From positions 496,001 to 560,000 of the forward strand of contig JADPYG010000001.1 of the NCBI GenBank assembly GCA_017654735.1: DNA of 64,000 bases. Reading direction: 5' to 3'. The notes beneath the pieces are model-generated. The model saw only the letters and a list, made by a program, of their open reading frames with translations. It made no database searches and was not told where the DNA came from. Made by a program: the position numbers and the translations under genes. This document shows positions 8,916 to 62,900 of the stretch, piece after piece. The stretch is from Vishniacozyma victoriae. Its lineage: Eukaryota; Basidiomycota; Tremellomycetes; Tremellales; Bulleribasidiaceae. Within the stretch, counting starts at the first letter, position 1. The number at the start of each line of letters is the position of its first letter.

Positions 8916-11900
8916 ATGTCTCTAGTCGGCAACTTCACACAGAACTACGACCGATCCTCCCAACAAGGTGGATCGAGTCTTCGACGAGCTCACTCCAATG
9001 TCTCCTATCATCAGGATGACACGGTCCAATCTTCGGGCCAAGGGAAATCCCACCTACCCACCATCGAACAGGGGAGCACTCAGACCTACCCTCCTACCGA
9101 TGGCTCCGAAAACGATCAGAGCTCAACACCTATGTCAATGACCGAAACTCTCCACTCTCGATCGCAGCACATCACCTCGCTTGCCCGAAACATGTCCAGA
9201 AGGTCCGAGCAGGGCAATCTCTTTGAGTACGAAGAGGGTTCAGATCTCGACCCTTTCTCAGACAAGTTTGATGCGCCAAAGTGGACAAGGCAGATGGCAG
9301 CTATGAGGGAGGAAGGAGCGCCAGGACGACAGGCTGGTCTGGCTTACAAGAACATGTCGGTTCACGGTTTCGGTTCCGATGCCGGTGAGTTCAGTCTACA
9401 TCACAGCGAGTGGTGCTGATCAGCAGATTACCAAAAGACAGTCTCCAACATGCCTCTGTCGCTGGCAGGAGCAATCCGAGACAAGATCTCGGGCAGGAAG
9501 AGGAAGGTCCAAATCTTGAACGGCATCGACGGTGTCCTAGACGCTGGAGAGATGCTAGTCGTCCTAGGTCCTCCAGGATCGTGAGTCTACACTAGTTCTC
9601 TTTCAGACTTTGCTGACGCCCTCAGTGGTTGTTCCACAATGTTGAAGACTATCGCAGGAGAGATGAACGGAATCTACCTCGAGGAAGAATCCGAGCTCAA
9701 CTACCGAGGTATCACCCCCAAGCAGATGTTGTCCCAATTCAGAGGAGAGGCTATTTACACTGCCGAAAACGATGTCCATTTTCCCAAGCTCACCGTCGGT
9801 GACACCCTCTCGTAAGTTGCAAGGACAATATGCAGGATGAAGCTGATGTACTAGCTTTGCTGCAGAGGCACGAGCCCCCCGAAACCCTCCTGCTGGATTG
9901 ACCAAGCCTCAATTCGCCCAACACTTGAGGAACGTCATCATGTCGGTTTTTGGTATCTCTCACACCGTCAACTCTATTGTCGGTAACGACTTTGTTCGAG
10001 GTGTCTCTGGTGGAGAGTGAGTCACCAACTGGCGGTATTTTGAACAACATACTGATGATCAGGCGAAAGCGTGTCACTATCGCCGAAGCTGCACTCTCTG
10101 GTGCACCTTTGCAATGCTGGGACAACTCCACTCGAGGTCTCGATTCCGCCAATGCCATCGAATTCGTCAAGAACTTGAAGATGGGAGCAGAATACATGGG
10201 GACCACGTCTGTCGTTGCCATTTACCAAGCACCCGGATCAGCCTACGACCTCTTCGACAAAGTCGCAGTTCTATACGAAGGAGAACAGATCTACTTTGGA
10301 AAGACCACCGATGCCAAGCAGTACTTCCTCGACATGGGCTTCTTCTGTCCCGATCAGCAAACTACTCCGGATTTCCTCACTTCCCTCACTTCTGCCAGTG
10401 AGCGAACTCCTCGAGAAGGATTCGAGGGCAAGGTCCCCACTACCCCACAGGAGTTTGCTTCGGCTTGGAGGAAGAGTAACGAGTACCAGAGGTTGATGCA
10501 GGACATTGAAGATTTCAACAATCAGCACCCAGTCCAGGGTCAGCGATACGATGACTTCTTGGCCAGTAGGCGAGCCCAGCAGTCGAAGCACATGTAAGTA
10601 CCTCATGTGAAAAACAAGGACGATTGCTAATCCTCAGCTCGGACAAGTCCCCATACACCCTCTCTTATGGTCAACAAATCAAGCTCTGTCTCAAACGAGG
10701 ATTCTGGCGACTCAAGGCCGATCCTAGTTTGACATTCTTCCAACTCTTCGGTAACTCTGCAATGGCCCTTATTCTCGGTTCGGTCTTCTACAATATGCCC
10801 GAAACAACCGATTCATTCCGATCTCGAGGAGCTACTCTTTTCTTTGCTGTTCTGCTCAACGCCTTTGGTGCCGCTCTCGAAATCTTGACACTGTACGCTC
10901 AGCGAAACATTGTCGAGAAACATGTTCAATACGCTTTGTAAGTCTCGCCCTTTACCCGTTGGGTCCGGCTGATGTTTCAGCTACCACTCGTCTGCCGAGG
11001 CTTTTGCTTCTATGCTTACCGATCTGCCTTACAAGATCATCAACTCTATCTTCTTCAACTTGATCATCTACTTCCTGCCCAACCTCAGGAGAGAGCCTGG
11101 TAAGTCGACTTTCCTTGTCTCACAGTGACACAGACTGACGACCAGGACCATTCTTCTTCTTCTACCTGATTAGTTTCTTCTCTACGCTCATGATGTCGAT
11201 GTTCTTCCGAACCGTCGCTGCTACCTCCCGAACCCTAGTCCAAGCATTGACTCCTGCCGCAGTCATCATTCTCGGTCTAGTCATGTACACTGGTTTCGCC
11301 ATTCCAACCACCTACATGTTGGGCTGGTCTCGATGGATCAACTACATCAACCCTATCGCATACGCTTTCGAGGCATTGATGATCAACGAGTTCAACAACC
11401 GAGAATTTGCTTGTTCGGCCTTTGTCCCCCAAGGCCCACAGTATGCCAACGTACCTGCCGATTCTCGAATCTGTTCCACTCTCGGAGCTACACCTGGATC
11501 CAACGTCGTCCAGGGTGCCGCCTACATCATCCAGTCATACGAGTACTATCCTTCTCACCGATGGAGGAATTTCGGTATTCTCGTCGCTTTCACCGTCTTT
11601 TTCCTCTGCACCTACCTGATCGCTACCGGTTTGTCACATCTCAATTCTCTTACTCTACAGAAGCTGACAGTCTAGAAAAGATCTCTGCTCAAAAGTCCAA
11701 GGGCGAAGTCCTCGTATTCCAGCGAGGTCGAATCCCCAAGGCTCTCAAGAACAAGAAGAACGCCGACGCCGAGTCTGGCGGAGACCACGGTACCGTCAAT
11801 GCCGAGAACGTCAAACAAGGCGAAGGTGGAAAAGTCAACGATAGCATCATCCAACGACAGACTGCCATCTTCTCTTGGAAAGATGTTGTCTATGACATCA

Positions 11901-14023
11901 AGATCAAGAAGGAGACTAGGCGGATCTTGGACCACGTCGATGGATGGGTCAAGCCCGGTACTTTGACTGCTCTCATGGTATGTCCCCTTCTACCTGTCAC
12001 AACGATGATTGCTGACAATCTAGGGTGTTTCTGGTGCTGGTAAAACCACTTTACTCGATGTCCTCGCTACCCGTGTCACCATGGGTGTTGTCACTGGTGA
12101 AATGCTTGTTGATGGCCGACAGCGAGATGTCTCTTTCCAGAGGAAGACCGGATACGTTCAACAACAGGATCTACATTTGGAAACTTCGACCGTCAGGGAG
12201 GCCCTTCGATTCTCGGCTATTCTTCGTCAATCCAAGAAAATCCCCATGAAGGAGAAGTTGGAATACGTCGAGGAAGTCTTGAAGCTCTTGGAGATGGACT
12301 CTTATGCCGATGCCGTCGTCGGGGTTCCCGGAGAAGGTTTGAACGTTGAACAGCGAAAACGACTTACTATCGGTGTCGAGCTTGTCGCCAAGCCCGCCTT
12401 ATTGCTTTTCCTCGATGAGCCTACCTCCGGATTGGACTCTCAGACTTCATGGAACATTCTTCAACTACTTCGAAAGTTGACTGAACACGGTCAGGCTATT
12501 CTATGTACCATCCACCAACCTTCTGCTATGCTTTTCGAACAATTCGATCGACTTCTCTTCCTCGCCAAGGGAGGTAAGACGGTCTACTTCGGTGAAGTCG
12601 GTGCTGGGTCCCAAAAACTGATCGATTACTTTGTCAAGACTGGCGCACCACCTTGTCCCAAAGGCGAGAACCCCGCTGAATGGATGTTGTCTGCTATCGG
12701 AGCTGCCCCTGGATCTCATACCGACGTCGATTGGCATCAAGCATGGATGGACAGTAAGGAACGTGTTGCCGTCAGGCAGGAACTCCAAAATCTCAAGGAT
12801 CAGGGATTGAAGAAGTCCGACGGCCAGGAAGAAGAAAAGAAGGATAAATCCGCCTACACCGAGTTTGCCGCTCCTTTCGGTGTCCAGTTTGTTACCGTCT
12901 TTATTCGAGTCAGTCAACAACTTTGGCGAACACCCAGTTATATCTACTCGAAAATGTTACTGTCGATCATTGTCGGTCTCTTTGTTGGATTCTCATTCTT
13001 CAAAGCGGACACCTCCCAACAAGGTCTAGCCAATCAACTCTTCTCCGTCTTCTTGGTATGTCCCGTCTCCGCTCCTTCTTGGAATATGGCTGACATCTAG
13101 CTCTTCACCATGTTCGGTCAATTGGTTCAGCAGATCATGCCTCAATTCGTCACCCAGCGATCCCTGTACGAAGTTCGAGAACGACCCGCCAAAGTTTACT
13201 CTTGGAAAGTATTCATCCTATCCTACATCCTCATTGAAATACTCTGGTCGGTCCTTGTCGGTACAATCCTCTTCTTCTGTTGGTACTACCCCATCGGATA
13301 CTACAGGAACGCCATCCCCACCGATACCGTTCACGTCCGAGGTGCCCTCATGTGGTTGTATGTTATGATGTTTATGATCTTCACTGCTACTTTCGCCGTG
13401 ATGGCTGTAGCTGGTCAGGATACCGCCGAGAACGCTGGTAATTTGGCCAATTTGGCTTTCTCCTTGTCCTTGATTTTCTGCGGGTAAGTCGTTTCGTACT
13501 TCTAGTACATGTCACAGAGCTGACTTATAGTGTCTTGCAACCTGCCGAGAAGCTACCTGGATTCTGGATCTTCATGTACCGAGTCTCGCCCTTCACATAC
13601 TTTGTTGAAGGAATGCTCGGTGTGGCAGTAGCCGATACGCTAGTTGAATGTTCACCCATCGAGTACCTCACATTCGAACCAGCAAATGGAGAGAGCTGCC
13701 AAACGTACATGGCCCCTTACATCGCTACCGCAGGAGGTTACTTGAGGGACACGGCGGCTACTTCAAACTGTGAATTCTGTTCCCTAAGGGACACCAACAC
13801 ATTCTTGAACAGTTTCGGTCTCAATTACGGAAACAGATGGAGAGATTTCGGTATCCTCTGGGCATACTGTATTTTCAACATTGCGGCAGCCGTTTTCTTC
13901 TACTGGGTCTTTAGGGTTCCAAAGAACAGTGGAAAGGAGAAACCTACCGAGGATGGAACTCCTGAGCCAGAGAAGAGGATCGAGGGTGGAGCGGAGAAGC
14001 CGGAGCAGGAGAAGAGGCATTAG
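8916..14023 (+). CDS. PDR-type full-size ABC transporter (ABCG family)
   Basis: Plasma-membrane drug or lipid efflux pump with the fungal PDR layout (NBD-TMD)x2, about 1,520 residues in some 12 exons. NBD1 has the family's atypical Walker A with Cys for Lys ([12 protein letters not shown]), a good signature (VSGGERKRV) and Walker [13 protein letters not shown]2 has a canonical Walker A ([12 protein letters not shown]) and [10 protein letters not shown], but a degenerate signature (LNVEQRKRL). This asymmetric pair of ATP sites is normal for the family. Membrane segments follow each NBD. The extracellular loop before the last helix is Cys-rich (SCQTY...SNCEFCS). The C-terminus is a charged tail rich in Glu/Lys. 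The family includes azole exporters such as Pdr5, Cdr1 and Afr1. I cannot assign the exact subfamily or substrate without a tree. Confidence 0.95.
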
Positions 14024-53287: not shown

Positions 53288-56200
53288 ATGGCGTCTGCTG
53301 TACTCTCACTTCCCCCTCCTCCTCGATCACCTCACCACTTCCCACTGTCTCACTCGAATTCACCGTCACCCTCCAGAATGTCTTCACGACCTACGACACC
53401 TCGTCCACCTAACTTAATGACCTTGATGCCCCATCTGTCTCAACCCATTTCGGCACCCCAAACACCAGTCACCCCAACTCATGTGTTGGGCATGGAGCGA
53501 TGTCGATCTTCCGAGCCCGTTCTCGGCAATCCATTCGCGCCGGACAGGGAGCGGAAGCTGGACCTGAGCAGAGGAGGTAGGGGCAGGGATATCAAGGCCA
53601 CTAGTCTACTGTTCAAGACAAGCCCTAGTGCAGATCAGATCCATTCAGCCGAGAAAGGTGAATGGCACCATATCGAGGGAAGTGAGCCGAAAGTGGAGCA
53701 GGATCTGCGGATGGATATTGATGGTGAGGATGATGAAGCTGAAGAGAGCCAGGAGGAGGAACAGCCTACCGTATGGGGTATGCCTAGGTGGGGATGCGAG
53801 AATGAACGAGGTGGTGAAGTCCGTAAAGGTGTCCGGCTAGTCGGCATGGAGGAGGTACATATTTCCATCTTTATTCATTCCAGAAAGCTGACGAGGCCAG
53901 CTTCCCGGTCTGATCTCCCAACATCAACATATCGATACACCCAGCCACGTACTGTTCCCTTGGTTACACGGGATATGTGATGATGGCCAAAAGGGAGTTG
54001 ACATGGCCAGTTTCTTTGGGTAAGCACCCCAACACTGGCTAGGCTGATCAATAGCTATGCCCCTCCATTCCAGCCTCCCCCATACCGAGGCCTATCCATA
54101 CTATACGTCGGGCAACAAATGATCAACAAGCTCGAGGAGAAACCGAAACGGAGATCACCCCTCTCCGACGCGCCTCAGCCTCTCACCAGCAGTGAGCCAT
54201 CCGTGACCGTCGATTATGCCCCTGCTTTCGATCGACCAGAGCCTAGGGAGCGCTCAGATACAATGTCGACTGCCGATTCTTACTATTCCTGTGATACTGG
54301 CAATCCAACTTCCTTATTGGACTGGGCTTTTGGTCCGAATCCTGCCACTCTCAAGAATAAACTCAAGAATAAAAGGGATGGCGATGTCAAGATGCATCCT
54401 ACCGAATCGAAACGTCTTTCTCCCGCTGCTGCCGATGATCAAGAGAGCAAAGGCGCCAAAGATGAGCACAAGACATGGGTACCACTCTTTGGTGGTCCAC
54501 CTGTCTATGCTGATGACGATTCCGAGTCTTTGCCCGAACTCACTTCCGATTCATCCGAATCACTAGACGAAGAGCAAGCGCCAAACTGCATATTATTGAA
54601 TGCTCTCCATGTCCAAGATATCTTCGATCTCCCCGGAACGAGCAGGCATTACATTGGTGAACCCCGATTTCGACCTCCTAGATTACCTGGAGCGATCAAT
54701 TTGAGGAATCTCAATATTCAACAGATCAAGTACCCCTCGATCTCGGATATAATCCTGTATGCCAAGGGTGGGGTTTCCGATGGACTGCTCAAGGTTGCCG
54801 AGATGGTTGCTCAGGCTCAGGAAGACATGTACCAATTCCGCATGGACGATTATTACCGTCACTTCGAAGATGGCTCGGCGGCGGAAGGTGTCGGCCGCCC
54901 AGTCAAATATGGGGTATGGTGCATTGTTGGTGAGGCGTTCTGATTTCTGAGTGGAATCTAAGCTAATGTCCAGAACCTTTTCACAAACTCGAGGCATTCT
55001 GCCCGGAGCTAGTCAATCTCGACTCGAACGGCAATACCACTGAAAGATCGCCGTTGACGGATCTGTTCGAGCGAGAAGCAAGCGAGAGCAGGGCGATGAC
55101 CAGAGGCTCAGAGGTGGTCGAGGGTTTCTGGGTCGGAAACAGTTGTGATATGCCTGGCAAAGAGGGTGGTGTAGGATCCGAAGTCTCGTTCGACCTCTGC
55201 GTTGGATGTGTGGAAGGGCTCGAAATGCCTTCGGCGGCAGTCCTGAACCAAACTTATCGACGTCTCACCGAGCAGGATAAACGCCGCAACACGATCGAGG
55301 AAGAGAAACCTTCGTGGACAGCTTCACCTGCTACGCTTGCTTTACGAAACCTTCTTTCCCCATCGGCTTCTGCTTCTACCCTACCTGAGTTGCCTGCCAA
55401 GCGAGGTGCTTCGCCTCTCGACGAGAACACCCGACAGAGGAAACTCAAGTGTAATGACGACGTTGTTGATGTCATGTGTTCGGGATCAGGTCGACCATTC
55501 AATGGACCCCAAAGAAATCTAAACGTCCTGGCAGAGAAGTTTGTTGAATTGATCTACTTTCTACGCAAGCTCATTGAGGGACGGGATAAAACTGGGATCA
55601 AGCGTAAAGTCCTCGTGCACTGCCAAGATGGGTATACCGAACACTCGATCCTTGTCCTTGGATACATCATGTCCTCCCTCTCTATATCACTACCAGAAGC
55701 ATACTTGCATTTGCAAAATACCGCACAACGATCGTTCTTTTTGTATCCGGCTGATCGACCGTTTCTAAAGAAGATCGACGCCAGACTCGCCGCTGATCGA
55801 AAAACGAAAGCTCTCAAGCTTGTCAATTCGGCCAGCACAACTCCAGCAAGTCCGACTTCGCCAATTGGCAACATCAGTCGATGGAAGTCTTGGACTTTGG
55901 GGCTCAACAAGACGGAGGCTAGGCCAAGTGGAGACGCGGTTAAACAGCAGACTATTGAGGCTGCCAAAGAGCTGTTGGCGCAGGAAGAGAGGGGAGGAAG
56001 TGAGGCGTGCCTCAAGGCAAAAGTCTGGTTCGAAGATAAACGGTTTGACGGGTTCCCTTCCCGGATTCTACCTTTCTTGTACCTTGGTAACCTGTAAGTC
56101 GCTCATATCCAGGCGTCGCTGACATATTAGTGAGCACGCTGGGAATGCAGGCATGCTCGAAGCGCTGGGTATCACTCACGTCGTATCCGTTGGCGAGACC

Positions 56201-56973
56201 TTGATCTCCTGCCCTCGGGATTGTGATCCAATGTACGGCAAGATTGGAGCCAATGCCCTGGTGAACGCCTATCAAGATGGCAAAATTCAAGTGTAATTCA
56301 CCATGCTTTCAACTCTACCACGCAGCTGATTGGTTCAGGCTGGATATTCTCGCTATCAGGGACGATGGGAATGATCCACTTCGACCTACCATTGCGAATG
56401 CTTGCGATTGGATCGAGAAAGCTAGATTGAACGGAGGCAAGGTCTTGGTTCATTGTGTAAGTCACCTTTGGGGGTACCTGGACATAGCTGACAAAGCAGC
56501 GTGTGGGGGTCAGCCGAAGTGCGAGCATTGTTGTGAGTAATGTTCCCATCTAGCAAGATAAGTGCTGACTGCAGATCGCGTACATGATGCAATATCTTCA
56601 CATGAGTCTGATGGATGCCTATCTCGTCACTCGAGCTAGGAGGCTGAATGGTATGTCTGCCCCCCAACTCTTCGAGCTGTTGCTGACAGCCAGTCCTAAT
56701 TCAACCCAATCTCCGCTTCTTCCATGAGCTCTTTGGATGGGAAGTAGAATTAGCCCGTCGAGAGGAGGATGATCGTCAACGTCTATCGGCCCAAATGCGC
56801 GAACAAGGTTTAATCGGTAAAGACGGGGACGTCGAATCGCCAGGTCCGCAAAAACAGAGAGAAATCCTCTATTCATGGCCATCATTCTGCCGGGACTTGG
56901 TATGTCACTTCTACCTTGACTGACGTTGCTGATAGTTTAGTACTGCCTAAACAGGCGTTTCCTGTGTAATTAA
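53288..56973 (+). CDS. PPS1: PPS1-like dual-specificity phosphatase
   Basis: Large fungal protein phosphatase of the PPS1 type, linked in yeast to S-phase control. About 1,050 residues in roughly ten exons. The N-terminal third is Ser/Pro-rich and acidic (MASAVLSLPPPPRSPHHFPL start). The middle domain runs LLNALHVQDIFDLPGTSRHY, LPGAINLRNL and so on to a phosphatase-like site VLVHCQDGYTEHSILVLGYI, where the Cys is kept but Glu replaces the catalytic Arg. The C-terminal domain has RILPFLYLGNL, then HCRVGVSRSASIVIAYMMQY, the complete HCx5R signature, formed by joining exons at 56458/56501 and 56533/56575. PNLRFFHELFGWEVEL follows. The end is spliced to YCLNRRFLCN-stop at 56971-56973, chosen over FSTA-stop because it keeps the conserved SWPSFCRDLYCLNRRF tail. 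Confidence 0.9.
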
Positions 56974-57370: not shown

Positions 57371-59256
57371 TCAGAATAGGCTTCGAGAGTACCTGTGTAC
57401 TCGGCGGCCTGAATCGACGTCAACATCGACCTTAGCATCGACATCGAGTCCGTGGTTGTGGCCGTGACCCAAGCCCTTCTTGTAAAGGGTATTGTGAGTG
57501 TTCTTGCCGATAGTCTAACCATCAGCGAAAGTTCAGGTCCGTCCGCTCAAGTCACTTACGTCAACAGCCCCCTTGACGCCGTTCTGGTTGTTCAAGAGAC
57601 CTCTTCGCTGATAGAATCGGTCTCCTCGGTGAACAGCGTCGACATCAACATCGAGATCGGCCTCAATGTCCAACCTATCATCGCCGTGTCGGTAGTCCCT
57701 CTTGCCGTAGATGATGTGGTCGGCGTTGAGCTCGGCCTCGGCCTCAATCTCAGCCATAAGCTCATCAGGGTCGTAGTAACCTCGCTTGATGGCTAGATCA
57801 TCGACTTCGATATCGGCAACAGCATCTAGAAGCTCGTCTTCGTCGTAGTGTCCGTAGTGGTGTGCGTGGTGGTGCCTGCCGCCGCTGTAACCGTGATCAC
57901 CACCAGTGACGTCTAGAACACCGCCGAGTAGTTTACTCTTTTGGTTTGGACCAGAAGAAAGGACATTGCCGAGGATATCGCCCTGACCGGAACCCAGGAT
58001 ATCTCGCTTGACAACAACATCGGCATCGACATCGAGCTGGTTGTCAGCTGAGGTAACAGGGTGGAAAGAGTAGGACATACAAGTTCACAATCACCGTTCT
58101 TGAAGGCTCCCCATCGACCGAACTTATTGCAAGAGTCACCGTCGGGAGGGCCTAGCAATCGCCTCTTGCCAACGTGAACATCGGCCTGGGCATGAGTATG
58201 GAGACCGGGGAAAAGGTGGAGATGACTTACAACAATGCACAGGAGACCACCGACAACACCCTGTCGTCCGTCCTGCCAGCAAGGAGCACCGTCGGTCAAA
58301 CCGTTCTCTCCTTGATAGTAGTATCCCCAGTAGCCTCGCTTCTGGACGTGAACCTCAGCCTGAGAGTCAGCTCACTTCCATGATCAGATAGATCAACGAC
58401 ATACGGCAAGACATTGGTAGTTGGTCAAGACTCCCTCCCTGCCGTTCTCAACACAGGGGACACCGTCCAAAAAGTAAGGGTCGTCCTTGTAGAATCGCTT
58501 GCCAATGGAAAGATCGGCATCAATATCGATCAAGTTACCACAAGATTGATCGTGGATGTATCCTCGTCGACTGTCAACCCAACAAGGTCGTCCCTCCTCG
58601 TAAAACCTGTTGAACCTCCATGGTCCGGCGTACCCGTGGTCGTATCGGCCAGCATCGACATCGACATCAACGACAGCGCAGAGGAGGTCCTGAAGGAGAC
58701 CTTGTCGACCATTGTGGAAACAAGGGGTACCATTGGCGAAGTACGGATCGTCAAAATTGTGGAATCGCTTGCCAACCTTGATGGAGGCATCGATGTTGAT
58801 CTGATTGTCAGCTCTTTCTATCTTTGTATCTTGAGCTACTCACCAAGTCACCACAGGTATGATCCTTCATCCAGCCTCGTCGGCCATCTACCCAACAAGG
58901 GGTTCGGTCGGCGTAGTAGTTGGTGAACTTTTGAGGACCAGATGGGGACCTCTTGTGTACAGCGACATCAAGATCAACGTCCAGCTAATCGTCAGCCGGG
59001 TCCTGCGTCTTGATTGGAGTGACATACATTTAGACAGATATTGTTCTGCCAGTGACCACGTCGGCCCTGTGACCAGCACGAGGAACCATCATCGTGACCT
59101 CGAGCAGCGAGACCGGCGCCCTGCTTGTCAGCTACTGACCTCTCGAGTGTAGTGATGACTTACTTTAGAAGAATGAGGAACTGGACCAGCCTGAACCTCA
59201 ACCACCGCTAGGGCAGCATATAAAGCAACAAGGGAAGCAGCGTAGATACCGAACAT
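57371..59256 (-). CDS. Secreted modular Cys-rich, Kex2-type multi-peptide precursor
   Basis: Novel-looking secreted protein of 525 residues in eight exons, all joined in phase 0. Exon 1 (59256-59164) is a signal peptide, MFGIYAASLVALYAALAVVE then VQAGPVPHSSK. Seven two-cysteine modules follow, each with C-x3-[GS]-R-x-G-x6-C, 13 residues between the cysteines in every case: CWSQGRRGHWQNNIC, CWVDGRRGWMKDHTC, CFHNGRQGLLQDLLC, CWVDSRRGYIHDQSC, CVENGREGVLTNYQC, CWQDGRQGVVGGLLC, CNKFGRWGAFKNGDC. Most are preceded by an acidic spacer (LDVDLDVAV, INIDASIKV, IDIDADLSI) and Lys-Arg. The Cys-poor C-terminal part has more Lys-Arg sites (VVKR, AIKR, YGKR), a His patch (RHHHAHHYGHY) and acidic D-V-D runs, and ends SRRVHRYSRSLF-like (SGRRVHRYSRSLF). 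No known domain was recognised. A Kex2-processed set of small one-disulfide peptides is inferred. Confidence 0.88.
58081..59120 (-). repeat. Seven tandem Cys modules encoded on exon-sized units
   Basis: Exons at 59120-59028 (module 1), 58984-58844 (module 2), 58800-58405 (modules 3-5 fused), 58359-58231 (module 6) and 58185-58081 (module 7). Every boundary is phase 0, so single exons can duplicate without breaking the frame. Module 4 lacks the Lys-Arg site; module 1 has only AAR before it. Confidence 0.85.
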
Positions 59257-59997
59257 TGTGTTGTATTATGTGGATTTGAAAGTAAAGCGAAGATCAACGA
59301 ATGAATATATGAACCGCTGGGGTCTTTTAAGTTGGTGGTGAAAGAAAGATAGATGAGTGTGAGTGAATGAGGAATAGACAGCATATTTCGTCTGCTTATA
59401 TATGACTGTCCTTGGTAGAATGAATCAATATTGAGCTTGGGGTTGTTTACGTGCCCCGGGGAATCGAGTGGGGTTGTCGCGTCAGTAGGTTAATCTGAAT
59501 ACTAGGTATGTGGGTTATGTCTCGCCTAAAGAGAGGTCAATTGAGACTGATCTCATTCCATGTGTGAGTCTGGATGGTCCCCCGATCCTCCGAGATGTGT
59601 ACATGTTGTCGAACATCATCGGCAGGCAAGAGCGAGGGTAGAGACATCCTGTCTCAGACGCGTCGTGGGGTCATGGCCGCGAAATCGATTGGCACACTTG
59701 CACTCTGGCGTCTCAAGCTCCGAACTAGGGCAGAAATGTATTCTTGGATCGATAGAGTAGCTAGCCGTCGACAGACTAGTGGAAATGACAGTCATGCATG
59801 CACGACGATGTCCGCAGCTTGACCTATGGAGATGAGTACGGGACCAAAATCAATCGCGTCAACCGATCATCCAAAAGTCAAGATTTCATCTCTCCATACC
59901 TCATCTTTTTGGCTAAATCTCGTCACCCACGCTTAGGGCATAGGTCGGATCCATTCTCGAAAGGGAATTCCCTCGCCAATCGATCGGCAGTATCGCC
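59257..59997. promoter_or_regulatory. Divergent region, secreted precursor gene / SEN1
   Basis: About 740 bases between divergent starts. A tatatatgac element at about 59398-59407 lies 140 bases upstream of the precursor gene and could be its TATA region. Short open frames at 59560-59822 do not resemble proteins. Confidence 0.45.
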
Positions 59998-62900
59998 ATG
60001 AACCCCGACCACCCAACTCCCGAGCAGGTAGAGGCAATTCTAATTGGAGCTGTAGCGAAACACCCTACCGATAGCGAGCTGCTCCCAGTTCTCAATTTCC
60101 TACTACCGATAGTGGATGTACCTCTGAGTACTTCTGTGTCTTCATCTTCTTCAAGTTCGACATCCACTGTTCACTTCTACTGTTCAAAATGTCCCTCGGC
60201 GATACATCGAGAATCAGCTACCTACTTGCTGTACTTGTTCGCCTTTCAGCGGGCTGGAACGGCTAGTAGGTTCATACAAGGATTGGAGAAGACTTTGAAC
60301 GGATGTGTGAACTGTGCTCGGTCGTTCGGGGGGATCAAGGGGAAGTTTGGTTCAAAGTGAGTTCTGGCTGCGCCCGGCTCATGAATGCAGAAGCTGACAA
60401 GGTAGGTACCTAGCCTTCCTACCACCTCAGGCGAAGAGTAACTTCTTTCGTGCCTTGGACGACTATCAATGTAAACTCATCCTCGATACCCTCAAATCCC
60501 TTTCCCTCTCCGATGCGGACTCGCCAACGCTGTTCGGTCTGCCATCATCGACAATCCAACTACTCTTCTCTGGACCAAGTCTATTGTCCAATGCCGAGAT
60601 CTCTACCGCCCTAGATAACGCTATCACCATTCACTACTCGTCGGCTCAACCTAATATCACATCCTACGGTCTCAATCCGCTCATGGTTCGCCTTCTCTCG
60701 TCAGCCAGCGCGAAACGTCGGTCATGGGCAATATCGCAGGTTCCAGCCTGTGCCCGCCGTCCGGTCTCGTTTGAGCATTGGTGTGATTCCGGGCTTGGGG
60801 AACAGGTACAAGCTTTGTATACAGGGACTGGGGACGCCAATCAAGAAGAGCGGTTCAAGGGTATGGAGGCGCTCTTGCGTTGTGGAGCGCTCTCTGCCGA
60901 TGCAGTCGAGAAGGGCCTCATTGAAGGCCGACTTCAAGCAGAGGGAGAGGACGGTGGACAGCAAGGCTTTATGGTCATGTTGAGTCATTTGCTTGGTAGT
61001 CCGTCTGAATGTGAGTCCAAGCTCAACGAAGGTCCGTGCTCACAAACAGATTATCAGACTATCCTAAATTGTTTCGCATTACTTCTCTCTACATGTCCTT
61101 CACCAGTCATGTGGACATTCGATACATCCCCCGATCTTCCTCATACCCTCTTTTCTGAAACCAAGGATAACGCTTCGTTCCAAAAAGTCATCATGGAGCA
61201 TTATCAATCATCCTCCCCACCATCACCTCAAGAAAACGCAATTTCAATGTCAAAAGGAAAAGGAAGGGAATGCGACTCGGAGAACCCAATGTCGTGGATC
61301 TCCGACTTTCTTCGATCGCTCGTACCGCTTAAAGGGGAGAGACGAAAGTCGGGCAAAGAAATGGCTCTTCCTCAAGCATTGGCAAAAGCCATGAATTTCT
61401 GCTTTGTCGAGATGCAACACGAGCGTGTCTCCGTCGAAGTCAAGGCGGCTTCGGCGCAATGTGGATTTGACGTAAGTCACGGCATACATGCTTCGTACTG
61501 ATCAACAGGCATTAGCGGATGTCCGCAAGCGTATTTCCGATAGCGGCCAAATCTTGCAGACCGCTTTCTCCTCGACTCTACAGGTTCACGCCAAATATAT
61601 CGCCGCTGTCGCACTCCGCCCAAATGATCGACCCGGTACTGCTTGGGCGTCAGCGAGATTATCCGCCCAAAGGCTGCTGGAACAATGTTTCAACGGCGAT
61701 GGTCGAGATATTGTCGAAAGCATGCTTGGCCTCGCCCATATCGCTTTTTCCGAGAAGAGGAGATTGAAAAGGTCTAGAGGAGGTAGGGAAGCCCCAGCCC
61801 CGCAACCTGTCACAAACCTGCACAAGGCATCTGTACATGGTGAACTCTGGCGTATGGCTTACGACAACGTCGGGACGGCCGATGTCGCTGGAGTCGCCAT
61901 CTTTCTCAAGACAATTTCGACATTCAGTCATGTTGAATTACTGGATAGAAGGAATGCTTGGAGAGGAGGATCACTCAATGCGGTCGTCAAGGAGGAAGAC
62001 TGGATAGCTTCGATTCGAGCAATCAACCATGGACTTCGAAACTCTCGGGAAGGGTTCGCCCATGCCCTTGAATCATTGGCGATGCAACCCGACACGGCGC
62101 TTACTCGGACCCTATGGGATATTGCTGGAGTACCAAAAGCCGCCATCATCCTCTTATTATCGCCAATCGACGAGATACATGATCCGATCATCAGTCTGAT
62201 CCAACAAGCCTTTGACGATACCGACGATCGACTAGACTGCTTCCGGATCCTCCTCCAAAAGTATCCTGATCAGGCAATGGAAGGTCTTCGATTCTTCCTC
62301 CAACACTTCATCCAGACCGCTCAGAAGACGCCCGATTCATGCTCGCTTGCTAAATGGCTAGTGAGGTGTTTCACCGATGTTCTCGATGTCCTCTGTAATC
62401 CCTCTTCATCTGAACCACTTCTACACGCCGAAGCGTTTCTTAACAATGAGGCCGGAGGTGTCAATATGAGCAAACGGGTCGGAGATCTTTGGTCGCTCAT
62501 GACGGAATCTTTGTCGGTCATCTTCGATCGAACAAAAGATTGGGCACCGCTATACGAGAATGAAGTCATGGTCGACTGGATGCGAGATGCTTTGATTTTC
62601 GGTAGAGGCATGACCGAACATATCCGAGTGTTTGAGGCTGCTTTTCTCGGTCAATCAGGATCACGATTTAGTGGGGACGATGTCGATTCACCATTAAAGA
62701 TCACGCATGTTGGGAAAAGGATGGTGGAGAAGCTGGAGAAGGTACTGAAGCATCTCGTATCCTGGCTCAGGCTCACAGAGTAAGTTGTTCCGCGTGTGAG
62801 CCCTGGCAGTAACTGATCTCAGCGTCGAGACGCTTCATCAAACCTTTGAGCTCATCAAGACTATTGTAGGCCGAATCGCCAAGGCCAAACCCGATCTCAC

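Follow-up and report, generated by a model that had tools for sequence, protein, structure and literature searches.

A predicted Kex2-type precursor of diversified cysteine-loop peptides in Vishniacozyma victoriae

In this study, we analysed a gene on the minus strand of a 64,000 nt window of Vishniacozyma victoriae contig JADPYG010000001.1, the window being the whole stretch of DNA examined, and searched the assembly to which it belongs (11.58 Mb, 17 contigs). The best reading of the gene is that of an orphan, diversified Kex2-processed repeat protein, with a layout like that of the known Kex2-processed repeat proteins (KEPs), which would work most like Rep1 of Ustilago maydis. We put the probability of this mechanism as a whole at roughly 0.6, the surface role of the peptides being its least certain step. 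The initial annotation of the locus had proposed a Kex2-type precursor at 57371-59256, which is exactly the ATG-to-stop span of our gene model. Its reading stands as far as the plan of the protein is concerned, namely a signal-peptide-like N-terminus, regularly placed Lys-Arg (KR) sites with an aliphatic P4 residue, the exon arrangement and a genome that also encodes Kex2; the cleavage itself is predicted.

The evidence begins with the modules. As had been claimed, seven modules fit C-x3-[GS]-R-x-G-x6-C, each with 13 residues between its cysteines (Table 1), and no further match to this pattern occurs in any of the six reading frames of the 64 kb window. When the 502 residues behind the predicted signal peptide were shuffled 100,000 times, the motif occurred at most once (mean 0.0006), and the looser C-x13-C, also observed seven times, reached a shuffle maximum of five (mean 0.36). 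All 14 cysteines of the 525-aa protein belong to the modules, which favours one disulfide per module. None of the seven modules departs from C, R, G and C at these positions, and the synonymous codons used there vary (two for R, three for G and two for each C), while a Gly precedes the module R in six of the seven, a Pro precedes the first Cys in five and an aromatic residue follows it in five. Nine of the 13 inter-cysteine positions hold four to six different residues across the set, and the residue following the invariant R varies, being R, R, Q, R, E, Q and W in modules 1-7. This combination of an invariant C/R/G/C frame at varied codons with variable loop positions suggests that the copies are old and have been held at the protein level. 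Together the modules amount to 7 x 15 residues, or 20% of 525, above the Le Marquer KEP threshold of 15% repeated motif.

The second part of the evidence is the placement of KR. Eight KR dipeptides are present, a number that one of 20,000 shuffles reached; they precede modules 2, 3, 5, 6 and 7, another closes the module half, and two more lie in the C-terminal half. Kex2 favours an aliphatic or basic residue at P4. At the six sites of the module half P4 is V, V, I, V, V and V, and at the remaining two it is A and Y; given that V and I account for 11.6% of mature residues, V or I in 6/6 has a binomial probability of 2.4e-6, in what is a post hoc test. In the ten residues up to P4 of the eight KR sites, 52 of the 72 steps change between hydrophobic and polar, while shuffling within each stretch gives a mean of 36.2 (P = 3e-5); for sites 4 and 5, part of the ten-residue stretch belongs to the module. 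By sequence, the acidic spacers have a strand-like amphipathic pattern. An acidic spacer with KR ahead of most modules, as initially described, is borne out insofar as KR stands before five of the seven; module 1 has a single Arg ahead of it and comes after the signal peptide region, and the acidic spacer in front of module 4 ends without KR. We consider it likely, on this sequence pattern, that the precursor is processed at KR.

The same facts bear on the alternative of a secreted protein that works unprocessed, for instance as a wall or matrix component, its acidic, extended backbone bearing seven disulfide loops and its KR pairs being incidental or used only once. Such a protein would account for the absence of KR ahead of module 4 and for the long, acidic C-terminal part without Cys modules, but it is at odds with a KR count far above chance, with KR ahead of most modules and with V or I at P4 throughout the module half. 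It also finds no Pfam family above cut-off, and a Ser/Thr-rich stalk was not noticed by eye, no wall-anchor predictor having been applied. We therefore regard an unprocessed protein as unlikely.

A Kex2 gene was found in the genome. P-domain matches occur at one place only, on contig C6, with an S8 match adjoining, and the gene there, when spliced, encodes a Kex2 of 918 aa that matches the PDB kexin 2id4 with an E of 1.8e-160. Among the best 120 of 6079 matches in the protein search, the nearest listed is from Naematelia encephala (68% identity, 93% coverage), and the next matches (rows 2-7) are from Kwoniella species at 64-65% identity. By Kex2 similarity, the genome is thus probably that of a member of Tremellales, with no near relative among the matches listed. 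Two adjoining S8 subtilase matches at 127267-128039 of contig C3, without a P-domain match there, perhaps belong to one further subtilase gene. DPPIV_N exons and S10 carboxypeptidase exons are also present in the genome, so that Ste13- and Kex1-like enzymes are possible.

Cutting at KR alone would yield nine pieces, six of which carry a module. The predicted products have 49, 45, 88, 36, 41 and 36 residues with their acidic tails kept, followed by three Cys-free pieces, and the 88-residue piece holds modules 3 and 4 because no KR stands ahead of module 4. The length of 30-35 residues first suggested for the peptides thus gives way to 36-49 residues plus one of 88, and one disulfide per released peptide is retained for five predicted pieces with one loop and lost for the 88-residue piece, which has two. 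Identity between the module pieces is 33-54% over 15 pairs, none of which reaches 65% identity at 70% coverage, the Umemura grouping threshold (the Umemura detection code itself was not applied).

Besides KR, RR occurs within the loops of modules 1, 2 and 4, with Q, D and D at P4, and 15 pieces would result if RR were also cut. Kex2 could in that case release two-chain, disulfide-linked peptides, in addition to the main mechanism. KR-or-RR cutting would give three parallel pieces of 22-23 residues, and the excerpted account of a Coprinopsis KEP describes an RR site that was cut in Pichia pastoris (PMC9769878). Against such nicking, only the first R is conserved, as the series of following residues given above makes clear, the P4 residues are Q or D, and structure blocks Kex2 cleavage in some substrates, according to the excerpted text of PMC2515848. 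Cutting within the loops is accordingly rated improbable. In the precursor cut at KR, the loop RR would be spared because Gln or Asp stands at P4 and the site lies within a closed loop.

With their tails, the module-bearing pieces have net charges of +1, -1, -3, -3, -4 and -7, while the loops alone range from +2 to -1, module 1 without its acidic tail having +2. A cocktail of antagonistic or host-directed peptides, antimicrobial or effector-like and diversified by selection, would be compatible with the same processing. It is consistent with old, divergent copies that combine a fixed C/R/G/C frame with variable loop faces and with the charge of the loops alone and of tail-less module 1, and a sub-threshold Antifungal_pept match on module 7 (PF11410, E 0.57) lies within chance. 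However, the tailed pieces are unlike typical cationic antimicrobial peptides, and no Pfam antimicrobial family was matched above cut-off, so we see such a cocktail as a possible but rather doubtful use of the peptides. Signalling is a further role compatible with the same processing, the precursor being pheromone- or hormone-like and only the conserved loop being the ligand. The two-Cys KEP peptide of Trichosporon oleaginosus ends in PCW, as the cited excerpt has it (PMC6339444), and PCW opens the loop in three of the seven modules here (2, 4 and 6). Yet the cores differ strongly, whereas the motifs of the precursors surveyed in PMC6339444 are described as identical or near-identical, and neither a repeated Ste13 XA/XP signature nor a CAAX end is present, which makes a signalling precursor unlikely as well.

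Closure of a Cys pair requires no UstYa-type oxidase, which counts against a precursor of ribosomally synthesized and post-translationally modified peptides whose cores would be cyclised further by UstYa-type (DUF3328) oxidases. UstYa (PF11807) had no match in the genome, a weak negative since the same search found none in any control genome. Kex2-type repeats behind a signal peptide are common to ustiloxin precursors, but the survey that describes them names Tremellomycetes as an exception to the classes in which DUF3328 genes came to accompany KEP genes (PMC7329392). We consider such further cyclisation highly improbable.

The exon plan is the third part of the evidence. Judged from its sequence, with predicted splicing, the minus-strand locus is a real, well-formed gene. 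All seven introns of the model are GT-AG introns of 43-45 bp in phase 0, and CTGAC or CTGAT stands exactly 11 bases ahead of the intron end in six of them; the introns of the kex2 gene, predicted in the same way, fall in the same size class at 35-47 bp. The best 15-residue hydropathy at the N-terminus is 2.1, against a best 19-residue value of 1.09 elsewhere, the two averages being taken over different lengths. Introns 2, 3, 4, 5 and 6 lie 2, 3, 2, 2 and 2 residues past the final Cys of a module, four of them between modules and one behind module 7, while introns 1 and 7 are located elsewhere. Exons 2, 3, 5 and 6 carry one module each and exon 4 carries three, and the order of spacer, KR and peptide is found in exons 3, 5 and 6. 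Most of this plan would be accounted for if one type of exon was duplicated and exon 4 subsequently lost introns. The intron placement two to three residues behind the modules, the P4 pattern (aliphatic at the KR sites of the module half, Gln or Asp at the loop RR) and the spacer alternation are observations added here to the initial annotation.

No homolog of residues 28-330 at E<=1e-3 was found among 4300 scored candidates in about 5.8 billion proteins, by a search that requires shared 5-residue words and that very distant relatives may escape; as a control, the same protein database returned many Tremellales Kex2s. Pfam gave no family above cut-off (sub-threshold PF11419, E 0.041; PF11410, E 0.57; PF02793, E 0.86), and the PDB gave no convincing match, the single one being at chance level (E 0.57) and outside the modules. 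Within the genome of V. victoriae, only the gene itself was returned by the full protein (5 places, E up to 1) and by an 81-residue two-module query (4 places, E up to 10), in searches that may miss low-complexity and divergent copies. Among the open-licence titles and abstract openings listed, no precursor with the C-x3-[GS]-R-x-G-x6-C module was found, an unnamed entry in a survey table being possible. The earlier statement that no known family has this module thus holds within these limits, and the gene is an orphan by sequence at the sensitivity used, a status limited by missed gene calls and by the 5-residue-word requirement.

Considering all the above results, we have proposed a plausible model for this precursor. 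The predicted signal peptide would lead it into the secretory pathway, the module disulfides would close in the endoplasmic reticulum, and Kex2 would cut after Val/Ile-x-Lys-Arg in the late Golgi, giving six different peptides, five with one disulfide loop and one with two, from which a Kex1-like carboxypeptidase would trim the terminal KR. The peptides would then most likely remain on or close to the cell surface, with diverse loops and amphipathic, strand-like D/V tails cooperating in the manner of the Rep1 repellent and not as a single pheromone. Duplication of a phase-0 exon with spacer, KR and peptide would have enlarged the gene. Given processing at KR, the Rep1-like surface role, drawn by analogy, is tentative and has in our view somewhat less than an even chance. 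We offer with still more reserve, as a speculative extension, a lineage-specific 'one exon, one peptide' factory, in which exon duplication would build a library of disulfide-looped peptides, D/V strand tails would co-assemble the set on the cell surface and variable loops would be displayed on the fixed C/R/G/C frame; if this were true, the peptides would form a class without a described relative. The likelihoods attached to the preferred reading and to its rivals do not sum to one, since signalling, the antagonistic cocktail and cutting of the loop RR all share the processing.

Several observations weigh against this model. Module 4 lacks KR and module 1 has a single Arg ahead, so not every module would be freed as its own peptide. 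The residues after the eight KR sites are SPSG, FHNF, FYKD, GYWG, RLLG, DILG, GYYD and DYRH, with an acidic P1' at only 2/8, whereas the excerpted study reports that acidic P1', P2' and P4' are preferred and that structure limits Kex2 cleavage (PMC2515848). Introns are missing between modules 3/4 and 4/5, and exon 2 lacks both a spacer and a KR, so that the exon logic fits the gene only partly; moreover, after cutting by Kex2 each acidic spacer would remain attached to the peptide ahead of it, from which the introns separate it, an outcome that an exon logic of spacer plus peptide does not explain. With a mean hydropathy of -0.09 to -0.74, all six pieces that carry modules are on the hydrophilic side, which disfavours a repellent-like surface film. 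The AlphaFold2 model, built on the seven-module alignment (mean pLDDT 53, pTM 0.24), gives no predicted fold support for the module. Finally, the excerpts of the cited accounts of Rep1 speak neither of a Cys pair or Cys-loop module nor of acidic D/V spacers (PMC4617103; further accounts in PMC8528282 and PMC7409079).

Table 1. Predicted features of the precursor gene; positions are those of the window
Feature	Position	Strand	Sequence	Remarks
Coding region	59256-57371	minus		ATG to stop, 525 aa, 8 exons, predicted splicing
Exons 1-4	59256-59164, 59120-59028, 58984-58844, 58800-58405	minus		predicted splicing
Exons 5-8	58359-58231, 58185-58081, 58036-57560, 57514-57371	minus		predicted splicing
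Signal peptide, residues 1-23	59188-59256	minus		predicted; hydrophobic core, V-Q-A before presumed cut
Module 1	59034-59078	minus	CWSQGRRGHWQNNIC	
Intron 2	58985-59027	minus		2 residues past final Cys, module 1
KR site 1	58949-58954	minus	VHKR	predicted Kex2 cut
Module 2	58853-58897	minus	CWVDGRRGWMKDHTC	
Intron 3	58801-58843	minus		3 residues past final Cys, module 2
KR site 2	58765-58770	minus	VGKR	predicted Kex2 cut
Module 3	58678-58722	minus	CFHNGRQGLLQDLLC	
Module 4	58540-58584	minus	CWVDSRRGYIHDQSC	no KR ahead
KR site 3	58495-58500	minus	IGKR	predicted Kex2 cut
Module 5	58411-58455	minus	CVENGREGVLTNYQC	
Intron 4	58360-58404	minus		2 residues past final Cys, module 5
KR site 4	58336-58341	minus	VQKR	predicted Kex2 cut
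Module 6	58237-58281	minus	CWQDGRQGVVGGLLC	
Intron 5	58186-58230	minus		45 bp; 2 residues past final Cys, module 6
KR site 5	58162-58167	minus	VGKR	predicted Kex2 cut
Module 7	58087-58131	minus	CNKFGRWGAFKNGDC	
Intron 6	58037-58080	minus		2 residues past final Cys, module 7
KR site 6	58004-58009	minus	VVKR	predicted cut, end of module half
C-terminal part, residues 331-525	57371-58003	minus		Cys-free; ~195 residues, acidic alternating stretches, KR/RR/KK, His-rich stretch
KR site 7	57782-57787	minus	AIKR	predicted cut, C-terminal half
KR site 8	57698-57703	minus	YGKR	predicted cut, C-terminal half
Intron 7	57559-57515	minus		interrupts Cys-free C-terminal part

Some further observations concern the locus and its surroundings. 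Intron 5 is in phase 0, its length is a multiple of three, and its retention is possible because it has neither an in-frame stop nor the CTRAY branch motif; retention would insert 15 residues between modules 6 and 7. In the C-terminal part, HHHAHHYGH at 57848-57874 is followed by an acidic stretch and may, by its sequence, bind metal. Plus-strand antisense open reading frames at 57413-57796 (127 aa) and 58384-58926 (180 aa) lie opposite Asp/Val-rich spacers and, judged by eye, are probably a by-product of the Asp/Val-rich codons and not genes. The divergent neighbour at 59944-62780 consists of exon-like frames with SEN1_N matches at 60398-61498 (E 1.1e-23) and 61476-62780 (E 1.3e-71); if it starts at the ATG at 59998, in a frame without a Pfam match itself, about 740 bases separate the two start codons. 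The convergent neighbour at 54967-56537 is broken into pieces, whose matches to dual-specificity phosphatases are weak and stay under the Pfam cut-off. Farther away, open reading frames with a Walker-A-like stretch at 11174-13097 resemble, by eye, an ABCG/PDR-type transporter.

Two pheromone classes were tried as candidates and rejected. For an ascomycete alpha-type pheromone there is no repeated XA/XP Ste13 signature (one SP in eight KR sites) and the cores are 33-54% identical; for a basidiomycete a-type (farnesylated) pheromone, the C-terminus is RSLF, with no CAAX.

Comparison with KEPs places the gene more closely. The excerpted survey counts 7878 KEPs, 2560 of them stand-alone without homologs, with a mean of 1.00 per strain in Tremellomycetes (PMC7329392), so that calling the present gene an undescribed peptide system was too strong. 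Some Coprinopsis KEPs are processed to peptides, according to the cited excerpt (PMC9769878). The gene shares with KEPs a signal-peptide-like N-terminus, related segments of <100 aa split by KR and the presence of Kex2. It differs in that its repeats are 33-54% identical and built on an invariant Cys loop, with four exons of one module each, whereas the precursors of the survey in PMC6339444 are described as having identical or near-identical motifs. The Le Marquer criterion asks for at least four KR/RR fragments with at least three sharing a motif, and the gene has them, the motif being shown here by pattern and alignment and not by the FIMO pipeline; the Umemura criterion of at least three repeats with 8-100 aa between Kex2 sites agrees by length with the six module pieces listed above. 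On a strict reading of near-identity of repeats (Umemura position score >0.6; Le Marquer), the present sequence would fail, and KEP repeat filters, built for near-identical repeats, may overlook this gene, although the filter code itself was not applied. This suggests that KEP surveys could undercount KEP-like repeats that have drifted past near-identity filters. Furthermore, the gene makes testable the use of aliphatic-P4 KR against the sparing of RR in a disulfide loop, and a surface, antagonistic or signalling role of a diversified loop set from one precursor.

Among individual precursors, the Trichosporon oleaginosus KEP likewise encodes a two-Cys repeated peptide in a basidiomycete yeast, but that peptide has 14 residues, Ste13 signatures and six residues between its cysteines in the excerpted description (PMC6339444), while here 13 residues separate them and no repeated Ste13 signature is found. 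The other comparisons are with Ustilago maydis proteins and are made by description, from the excerpted account in PMC4617103. Hum3 has seventeen imperfect tandem repeats of 31-36 aa with putative Kex2 motifs, as here, but ends in a hydrophobin domain, which Pfam did not find in our protein. Rsp1 has eleven hydrophilic repeats of 18 or 21 aa, shorter than ours, also with putative Kex2 motifs; its function is described there as unknown, and it comes nearest to the present peptides in hydrophilicity. Rep1 has twelve imperfect, amphipathic repeats of 34-55 aa, from which Kex2 releases ten peptides (35-53 aa) together with a 228-aa product, to be compared with 36-49 residues (one of 88) and about 195 residues here, a parallel in layout. 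A repellent of the Rep1 kind would be expected to consist of amphipathic or surface-active peptides that form amyloid-like fibrils; here the spacers alternate, yet the module pieces are hydrophilic on average. Rep1 has the nearest layout among the systems compared, and it is the basis on which we suggest a surface role for the V. victoriae peptides.

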